NCBI RefSeq assembly: GCF_009740285.1 | Contig: NZ_CP046566.1 | Location: forward strand, 434,001 to 498,000 | DNA: 64,000 bases | Direction of reading: 5' to 3' | DNA from: Phnomibacter ginsenosidimutans | GTDB lineage: Bacteria > Bacteroidota > Bacteroidia > Chitinophagales > Chitinophagaceae | Translations under genes and position numbers: made by a program | Shown: one piece after another, positions 56,951 to 58,080 of the stretch | Layout: each line of letters begins with the position of its first letter | Position numbering within the stretch: position 1 is the stretch's first letter | The notes under the pieces: model-generated | Told to the model about the DNA's origin: nothing | Databases searched by the model: none | What the model saw: the letters and a program-made list of their open reading frames with translations, nothing else

Positions 56951-57022
56951 GGCTTCGTAGTACAATGGATAGTATAAGAGTTTCCGAAGCTCCAGATCCA
57001 GGTTCGATTCCTGGCGAGGCCA
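56951..57022 (+). tRNA. tRNA-Arg (anticodon CCG)
   Basis: A full cloverleaf can be drawn. The acceptor stem is GGCTTCG with CGAGGCC (7 bp), the D stem GTAC/GTAT, the anticodon loop TTCCGAA with anticodon CCG, and the T arm CCAGG-TTCGATT-CCTGG. The last pair of the anticodon stem is mismatched. CCA is not encoded, as usual in Bacteroidetes. It decodes the arginine codon CGG. A terminator follows 8 bp later. Confidence 0.93.
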
Positions 57023-57030
57023 CAAGAATA

Positions 57031-57055
57031 AGCCAGCTACACAGCTGGTTTTTTT
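57031..57055 (+). terminator. tRNA-Arg terminator
   Basis: The stem CCAGCT/AGCTGG (57033-57038 with 57043-57048) is extended by a G-U and an A-U pair and has a 4-base loop. A T run follows to 57055. Confidence 0.8.
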
Positions 57056-57126
57056 GTTTCCGAAACTCCGGATGCAGGTTCCCTGTCTGCTTGACGCAGT
57101 CAGGCAGGGATTCCTGGCGAGGCCAC
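57056..57126 (+). pseudogene. partial tRNA-Arg copy split by a 27-bp palindromic insert
   Basis: After the terminator the sequence repeats the tRNA from the anticodon loop to the 3' end (TTTCCGAA...GGTTC, then GATTCCTGGCGAGGCCAC) with a few changes. The 5' half is absent. Between GGTTC and GATTCC, in the T loop, sits a 27-bp insert (57082-57108) that is an imperfect palindrome starting CCTGTCTGC and ending CAGGCAGG. The insert resembles a REP-type mobile palindrome. The copy cannot make a tRNA. It looks like an integration or duplication scar at a tRNA 3' end. Confidence 0.75.
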
Positions 57127-57135
57127 AACTTTTTT

Positions 57136-57160
57136 AATCAGCCTGCATGGCTGATTTTTT
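57136..57160 (+). terminator. second terminator after the broken tRNA copy
   Basis: An 8-bp stem, AATCAGCC (57136-57143) with GGCTGATT (57149-57156), a 5-base loop and a T run. Its presence suggests the whole tRNA-terminator unit was once duplicated. Confidence 0.75.
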
Positions 57161-57177: not shown

Positions 57178-57911
57178 TCAATCTTCTATCACCAATCGGC
57201 ACACCGTTGTAGCAGGGTAAGCGGCCCATTTCATGAAATGAAAACCGGTGGCGGCATCGCTGCCCACAGCACTGCTGTAAGAAGCATCAGAAAAAAGACG
57301 TTGCCGTATATCGCCAGCACATGTTCAATCGAATTGTTGCCATCGATACCGCCGTTATTGGTACCATTATCTGTCGATGCCCGCCAGCGTTTGGTGGCCG
57401 GATTGTAGCTCATGCGGCAGCTGCCAAATACAGATACACCTGTACTGTTGGCATCAAAACTGCTCATCGATACAATCGCCAAACAGCCTTCTTCATCGGC
57501 ACAGGCATCGGTAATAATATTATCAGGGATAGCAATGCTGCTGCCTGTTGGGTGCGACGCATTCAGCTCCCACACATAGCGGCGCTTTTCCACAGTACTG
57601 CTGGTAAAAGTGCTGCTGCCATTCACCGATTTCAACCGTACAAACTGGTTCATGTTGGCCAGCTCTACCCAATCGGTATTTTGCATGAGCCAAAACGATT
57701 GCGTGTCTGTATCAAACACCATCAAACCAGTAGCGGCATTGAGTATGTTTTTACGTTGTGTGCTGGTCATGCGGGGCATTAGCAATCCCCGGCTGTTGTC
57801 TTCAATGTCCAATGCAGCACTGGCATCAGGCTTTGTGGTGTTGATACCCACTGGCTGCGCCAACAAGTTGCTGCAATACAAAAAGCATAGAATGGTAATT
57901 ATTTTTTTCAT
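57178..57911 (-). CDS. secreted protein with Bacteroidetes surface-fibre-like N-terminus, frameshifted
   Basis: About 244 residues when repaired. A signal peptide (MKKIITILCFLYCSNLLAQ) is followed by PVGINTTKPDASAALDI and RGLLMPRMTSTQR, then ATGLMVFDTD, a pattern common at the start of Bacteroidetes surface and tail-fibre-like proteins. As written the frame ends in an odd hydrophobic tail. One more base in the A6 run 57291-57296 (plus strand) gives SDASYSSAVGSDAATGFHF and a stop at 57178, which reads as real protein. The start is the ATG at 57911. Function is unknown. Confidence 0.7.
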
Positions 57912-58080
57912 GGGAAAAGGGAAGAGATAGTAGCTATAAAGAAACGGGATTGCCAACAGCCCCACAATGGGCCATTAGGCGTATGGCGGCAAGAGATCTA
58001 TACAAATGCTGGCTGAAAGAATCTTTTTCTACTGCATCTTGCATGCCTGTTTACCATTGCTCCGCAACCATCATTTGTAT

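Follow-up and report, generated by a model that had tools for sequence, protein, structure and literature searches.

A palindrome-bearing dead tRNA-Arg copy in Phnomibacter ginsenosidimutans and a probable family of tRNA-linked GIY-YIG nuclease elements in Bacteroidota

We studied positions 434001-498000 of the single 4.37-Mb contig of Phnomibacter ginsenosidimutans; we call this stretch of 64,000 nucleotides the window. It contains an intact gene for tRNA-Arg(CCG) and, downstream, an incomplete copy of that gene, each followed by a terminator-like hairpin (Table 1). The copy corresponds to the 3' part of the tRNA from the anticodon loop on, and 41 of its 44 nucleotides are identical to the gene if an insert of 27 nt is excluded. 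A repeat search found both parts of the copy as direct repeats (56980-57005 with 57056-57081, at 88% identity, and 57006-57025 with 57109-57128, at 100% identity). The insert (57082-57108) splits the T loop precisely, with GGTTC before it and GATTCC after it. We will call the interrupted copy dead.

Table 1. Features at the tRNA-Arg(CCG) locus (positions in the window).
Feature	Start	End	Strand	Identified by
Intact tRNA-Arg(CCG)	56951	57023	+	ARAGORN
First terminator-like hairpin with T run, separating the tRNA from the dead copy	57030	57056	+	By eye
Left part of dead tRNA copy, from the anticodon loop to C56 (T loop), last letters GGTTC	57056	57081	+	Alignment, direct repeats
27-bp palindrome inside the T loop of the dead copy	57082	57108	.	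Genome pattern search, fold
Right part of dead tRNA copy, from the T loop to the 3' end (GATTCC...GCCAC)	57109	57126	+	Alignment, direct repeats
Second terminator-like hairpin with T run, 3' of the dead copy	57136	57161	+	By eye

The insert is a palindrome, and together with the T arm of the dead copy it folds into one long hairpin. It is imperfect: the folded stem has one wobble pair and one bulge, and a search for inverted repeats, at the settings that we used, returned no pair for it. This tandem arrangement had been described in the original prediction, and the alignment, the fold, and the repeats confirm it, as does inspection by eye for the two terminators. The arrangement had also been taken for the mark of a tRNA-targeting integrase, and this part was not supported. 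We noticed no integrase by eye among the open reading frames around the copy; the segment between the tRNA and the copy (57024-57055) contains none and is too short to encode one; and what sister units have in common is a gene for a GIY-YIG nuclease. The Arg(CCG) unit in the window has no nuclease gene.

We searched the whole 4.37-Mb genome for CCCTGNCTGNNTGACGCAGTCAGGCAGGG, a 29-mer that spans the palindrome, leaving three positions free and allowing at most 3 mismatches. All eight matches were exact and identical to each other, and the reversed control gave none. The palindrome does occur elsewhere in the genome, then, and each of the eight matches falls in the T loop of a 3' tRNA copy that follows an intact gene: one for Arg(CCG), four for Leu(GAG), and three for Leu(CAG). 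The Leu(GAG) copies belong to four tandem units of 130 bp, whose later segments differ from the first at 2, 4, and 0 of 103 positions. The Leu(CAG) copies belong to three tandem units of 347 bp with identical 320-nt segments, and each unit encodes an 81-amino-acid GIY-YIG protein (PF01541). Neither the 103-nt nor the 320-nt segments contain an integrase, for which both are too short; the 320-nt ones carry the GIY-YIG gene. The dead copy in the window has exactly the palindrome of the nuclease-bearing Leu(CAG) units in this genome, and its unit may be served in trans by the Leu(CAG) nuclease. A looser palindrome pattern gave three additional sites, with no tRNA in the surrounding 2.1 kb, and the long 27-bp form was found in tRNA copies only. 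The absence of tRNAs from the 3-kb surroundings of the other three GIY-YIG genes in the genome counts against reading these units as tRNA-linked nuclease elements.

We compared these loci across 10 genomes of the genus, including G000, which contains the window. The Arg(CCG) locus was readable in eight of them (G005 and G008 were left out). The palindromic Arg(CCG) copy is present in 2 of the 10 genomes, G000 and G002, and is absent from the ~330 nt after the tRNA in G001, G003, G004, G006, G007, and G009. G002 has three palindromic units, and its contig begins inside the array. A stem resembling that of the first terminator in the window (AAGCCAGC...) is present in all three. Between G000 and G006, 97.8% identity ends precisely at the end of tRNA-Arg(CCG) and picks up again 1.1 kb on. 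In this gap, just after the palindromic copy, lies a gene (57231-57965, - strand) that is also found in G002, along with the Arg(CCG) array; the stretch with this gene is missing from G006, which has no Arg(CCG) array either. Because the palindromic copy varies among close relatives, it is not merely an old fixed duplication. This bears out the original view that the 3' copy is of a mobile character, and the arrangement is not conserved in many relatives, as an old tandem duplication might be.

The nuclease-bearing Leu(CAG) unit is present three times in G000 and once each in G002, G003, G005, and G006. None lies beside the Leu(CAG) gene of G001 or G004. In G002, as in G000, nuclease-free units have the palindrome in common with a nuclease-bearing one. 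(At this locus, only ~210 nt were visible in G009, and G007 and G008 were left out.) The Leu(GAG) array of G000 is absent from G002 and G006. In these two genomes, the terminator after the single Leu(GAG) tRNA is the same as that within the units of G000, and just past it the homology with G000 stops, which points to duplication of native DNA there. Since the Leu(GAG) units hold a native terminator, we dropped the general claim that the element always supplies its own tRNA end and terminator. To judge from these sequences, the number of units changed recently. The Leu tRNAs of G005 (L207), G003 (L208), and G001 (L272) have another type of 3' copy, with a different hairpin (GGATCGCC...GGCAATCC) ahead of the 3' end.

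Among G000, G002, G005, and G006, dN/dS for the nuclease is 0.040-0.107 in five of the six species pairs and 0.34 in the closest pair; pairs involving G003 were saturated. These ratios indicate that the nuclease is under purifying selection. The palindrome is identical at 27/27 positions among G000, G005, and G006 and at 25/27 in G003. For instance, the nucleases of G000 and G005 differ at 25 of 46.7 synonymous sites and the palindrome is unchanged (27/27).

We also searched for GGTTC-palindrome-GA more widely. It was found in 9 of the genomes of 59 relatives (the reversed control had 0 matches) and in at least 117 stretches of a species collection. Among the 117 listed stretches, 63 have an intact upstream tRNA that shares at least 13 identical nucleotides at its 3' end, another 17 have less than 400 nt of upstream sequence, and 37 have neither; some of the 37 are plainly chance matches. 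By their phylum labels, 79 of the listed stretches are from Bacteroidota, and 12 have no label. A GIY-YIG frame lies within 400 nt in 33 of the 117, and in all 33 it is on the same strand. T-loop palindromes are also found in 13 listed loci that we take to be from Patescibacteria-type candidate phyla (L051, L053, L054, L057, L068, L071, L073, L076, L085, L124, L127, L138, and L139). A matching tRNA is present in 9 of these 13, and none of the 13 has a GIY-YIG gene within 400 nt, which counts against an element that includes the nuclease. In another genome, G028 (L244-L259), the perfect 20-mer CCTGCCTGCCGGCAGGCAGG occurs at many sites, mostly with no nearby tRNA, and several sites are within similar longer flanking repeats. 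In G028, CCTGCCTGCCGGCAGGCAGG is a dispersed repeat of its own.

Starting from the nuclease instead, we ran a profile of 16 nuclease proteins (A1) on 59 genomes of the order (Chitinophagales) and on 99 genomes of the phylum. From the order, we took the best 60 distinct places outside the P. ginsenosidimutans genome, with ~1.2 kb per side where the contig allowed; from the rest of the phylum, we obtained 67 further loci. A tRNA on the same strand lies within 500 bp of the nuclease in 46/60 order loci (within 200 bp in 44/60) and in 58/67 loci outside the order, and no locus in either set has a tRNA on the opposite strand only. The 14 order loci that lack a tRNA within 500 bp include 6 at contig edges, and the 9 such loci outside the order include 4. 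Because A1 was made from tRNA-linked proteins, these proportions describe this nuclease family only, not all GIY-YIG genes. As a control, we examined 20 regions that together contain 23 of the 29 listed matches to Y1 transposases (PF01797, Y1_Tnp; 8 of the 9 genomes searched), and these had no tRNAs in 44,820 nt. Several of the Y1-transposase genes (L383, L384, L392, and L398) are ringed by repeated palindromes of their own, unlike those studied here.

We sorted the palindromes at these loci into types and considered a palindrome to be inside a tRNA copy if there was tRNA sequence on both sides, with at most 2 mismatches per 10 nt per side. By this definition, 25/60 order loci and 24/67 loci from the rest of the phylum have a typed palindrome inside a dead tRNA copy. 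Any typed palindrome, inside a copy or not, is present in 41/60 and 38/67 loci, respectively, and in 0/20 of the control regions, which likewise contain no palindrome of the type in the window. In both sets, more than half of the loci lack a typed palindrome within a tRNA copy, and this counts against the element reading.

The loci have two layouts that mirror each other: tRNA, nuclease, and 3' copy, or 5' copy, nuclease, and tRNA. Arrays of tRNA copies are common; for instance, L346 has eight 5' copies of tRNA-Asn. Some palindromes interrupt the T, D, or anticodon loop, and others take the place of an entire arm; replacement of one arm of the cloverleaf is frequent. Some break points recur. 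If we give the last position kept and the position at which the tRNA resumes, these are 28|46 for Val; 27|45 for Met, Ala, Pro, and one Arg; 37|48 for Met; 50|59 for Asp; 22|23 for Arg; and 63|65 for Leu. At L255 (G028:C103:16600-18700), a 5' copy of tRNA-Leu with a palindrome in its D loop lies upstream of an intact tRNA-Leu(GAG), which mirrors the layout in the window. ARAGORN gives odd labels to some of the arm-swapped copies, such as 'Stop tta' (L325, 1419-1506, and L336, 965-1040) and 'aata' (L335, 1457-1535), and such copies could pass for suppressor or stop-codon-reading tRNAs in genome annotation. The original observation is real and is more general than first noted: on sequence grounds, the architecture and its mirror form recur across the phylum, and palindrome type is linked to nuclease lineage.

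The nuclease is a single-domain protein of about 81 amino acids. PF01541 was found in 6/6 proteins that we scanned. Y, Y..G, R, H, and E are invariant across all 16 aligned nucleases; these are presumably the catalytic residues of GIY-YIG nucleases. Among solved structures, the profile is closest to the UPF0213 proteins 1zg2 (1.8e-11) and 1ywl (4.5e-10), followed by SLX1 (6seh; 1.2e-4) and the I-TevI domain (1mk0; 4e-4). The names under which the UPF0213 and SLX1 structures are listed are silent on tRNA-linked elements, and the SLX1 chain, at 324 amino acids, is longer than the nuclease here. Since SLX1 is named as a structure-specific nuclease, recognition of a hairpin by a related nuclease would fit, by analogy. 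As to the source of the nuclease, we rejected a close phage origin: 14 phage records match it at all, each at under 40% identity.

To compare the palindromes with the nuclease tree, we used palindrome types that were fixed from order loci already seen, and we applied them unchanged outside the order. The types were assigned by regular expression, which misses real cases. (L311 and L314 were typed as TCTGCC at first and then not placed, though by eye they are of the CCTG kind, and L318 was untyped; we left all three so.) Palindromes near but not inside tRNA copies were included in the first typing and left out of the counts of changes on the tree. The nuclease alignments are short (79 columns for the first tree), and many forks are unresolved.

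Palindrome type changes 5 times on the order tree (least possible 4, shuffled 10.5; 25 typed of 46 rows) and 5 times on the tree from outside the order (least 3, shuffled 10.0; 23 typed of 57 rows). In both sets, 0 of 200 shuffles were as low. On the same rows, tRNA identity changes 13 times in the order (least 11, shuffled 17.7) and 10 times outside it (least 7, shuffled 15.6), again with 0/200 shuffles as low in both. Since tRNA identity tracks the tree too, the elements have in part been inherited slowly and vertically at fixed tRNA loci. Host family changes 14 times in each set; 0/200 shuffles were as low in the order (least 8, shuffled 18.0) and 34/200 outside it (least 7, shuffled 15.4), so host family follows the nuclease tree within the order and hardly at all outside it. 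These comparisons indicate that palindrome type tracks the nuclease tree more than the host. The replaced arm, with 7 changes in the order (least 4, shuffled 10.4; 0/200) and 9 outside it (least 3, shuffled 11.9; 7/200), is a weaker label than palindrome type. In the first tree, the Arg(ACG) locus L345, whose anticodon arm has a TCCCG palindrome, falls among Val elements, and three Arg(ACG) elements with CCTG-kind palindromes (L311, L314, and L316) are placed in a different supported clade.

Because palindrome type tracks the nuclease tree, we conclude that the palindrome belongs to the element. The original prediction had suggested that it may be a separate mobile element that struck an already dead copy. 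That idea was not supported: in this genome the palindrome lies at one position in copies of three tRNAs, across the phylum palindromes are found within tRNA copies next to nuclease genes, and their type follows nuclease lineage. With the palindrome as part of the element, no chance second insertion and no integrase is needed. Plain co-inheritance suffices to explain the link between palindrome and nuclease, so the link places the palindrome in the element and does not imply that the nuclease reads it.

The family has much in common with SegB of phages T4 and T6. According to PMC13096335, SegB is a free-standing GIY-YIG homing endonuclease whose gene lies beside tRNA genes and which cuts within them, at the motif RAWTSGAAC. 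As described there, it causes the tRNA region to be amplified in tandem through recombination, and does so in trans as well; this amplification aids the phage against tRNA-cutting defence (PMC13096335). The paper makes no mention of palindromes, T-arm, T-loop, or T-stem. On the other strand, the motif reads GTTCSAWTY. We take this to be the T loop of tRNA genes, where the palindrome in the window sits. Among the 63 tRNA-matched listed loci, the two flanks of the palindrome together spell the reverse complement of RAWTSGAAC at 60 of 78 sites, which means that the palindrome sits inside the motif. At these sites it splits the T-loop motif of the dead copy, and the adjacent intact tRNA keeps the motif.

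The likeness to SegB is one of gene neighbourhood and motif. A GIY-YIG gene, with conserved residues, lies beside its presumed target tRNA gene, and the tRNA region is amplified in tandem. Unlike SegB, the element here is chromosomal, its nuclease has a single domain, and it comes with dead, arm-altered tRNA copies and with lineage-specific palindromes.

We think that these loci are probably tiny, selfish, tRNA-linked nuclease elements that act like phage SegB, and our best reading of the copy in the window is that it is a nuclease-less member of this family. A full unit would consist of an intact tRNA gene, a same-strand gene for the ~81-amino-acid GIY-YIG nuclease, and then, beyond the nuclease gene, a dead copy of part of that tRNA. 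The palindrome typical of the nuclease lineage would be inserted in a loop of the dead copy or would replace an arm. Given the precedent of SegB, and the structural relatives SLX1 and the I-TevI domain, we infer that the nuclease may break the DNA of tRNA genes, either at an arm (for the type in the window, at the T loop) or at the palindrome in the dead copy. Recombination between neighbouring tRNA copies would mend the break, and the unit would thereby be amplified or spread; the intact tRNA would keep the host alive as this happens. Transfer, action in trans, and the exact role of the palindrome are likewise predictions of this proposal.

A broader version is possible, and we offer it tentatively. 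The elements might be phylum-wide arm-swapping mobile elements, with one nuclease and one palindrome family per lineage. Redundant tRNA copies would be killed by replacing an arm with the element's own hairpin and would then serve as sites for recognition, cutting, and amplification. Nuclease-free units would be mobilised in trans, and dispersed palindromes would be by-products.

Alternatively, the palindromes might be independent of the nuclease. REP/RAYT palindromes and Rickettsia palindromic elements are short, repeated, and partly dispersed, and REP-like palindromes could enter hairpin loops, with dead copies merely tolerant of them and the nuclease a bystander of tRNA duplication. The same palindrome families are indeed found away from tRNAs, at the three further sites in G000 and at most of the G028 sites that we looked at, and Patescibacteria-type loci among those listed have the palindrome without a nearby nuclease. 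We still consider this explanation unlikely, given that palindrome type tracks the nuclease tree in two separate sets, that the long form is confined to tRNA copies in its own genome, and that the Y1-transposase regions contained none of this type. Also, the palindromes here differ from REP/RAYT and Rickettsia elements in that they are in tRNA arms beside GIY-YIG genes, with no adjacent Y1 transposase in the regions examined. We rejected REP/RAYT as the spreading agent on account of the same Y1_Tnp regions.

It is quite improbable that a tRNA and its flank were simply duplicated in tandem and then decayed, with no mobile behaviour. The native terminator in the Leu(GAG) units and the clustering of tRNA identity on the nuclease tree agree with plain duplication, but it does not account for one 27-bp palindrome in three tRNAs, for presence and absence within one genus, or for a conserved palindrome and a nuclease under purifying selection. 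Another idea is that the host benefits, with dead tRNA copies and the nuclease acting as decoys for invaders that use tRNA genes, be they phages or integrating elements. Wide retention, purifying selection, and the reported advantage that SegB-driven amplification gives to phages would agree with such a function, but patchy presence among species of one genus and varying numbers of units fit selfish turnover better, and we regard a decoy as very unlikely.

tRNA-targeting integrases (tyrosine integrases) typically leave an attL/attR pair in which a tRNA is followed by a copy of its 3' end, and work by Williams from 2002 is said to place the crossovers of these integrases in T and anticodon loops. 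Integrative elements of this kind resemble our loci in that 3' copy. Our loci differ in that we saw no integrase, that the units measure 0.1-0.35 kb, that mirror 5' forms exist, and that the dead copy contains a palindrome. Although the break in homology between G000 and G006 at the exact end of tRNA-Arg(CCG) would also suit a lost island whose dead 3' copy was later hit by an unrelated mobile palindrome, we set this explanation aside as hardly credible, because the tandem units are too short for an integrase, three tRNAs have the palindrome at one and the same position, 5' copies lie upstream of intact tRNAs in the mirror form, and the gene that recurs is a GIY-YIG nuclease.

We found no description of such tRNA-linked elements in searches of one open-licence library, and a family of tRNA-linked nuclease elements with lineage-specific palindromes is apparently undescribed so far. 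The pairing of nuclease lineage and palindrome type makes recognition directly testable in vitro. The elements are a candidate route for the spread of short palindromes in Bacteroidota genomes, and they would account for many partial tRNA copies. If our preferred reading is true, then SegB-like free-standing nuclease elements, a kind known from phages, have made a home on chromosomal tRNA genes across a whole bacterial phylum, and they live there in units as small as 0.1-0.35 kb.
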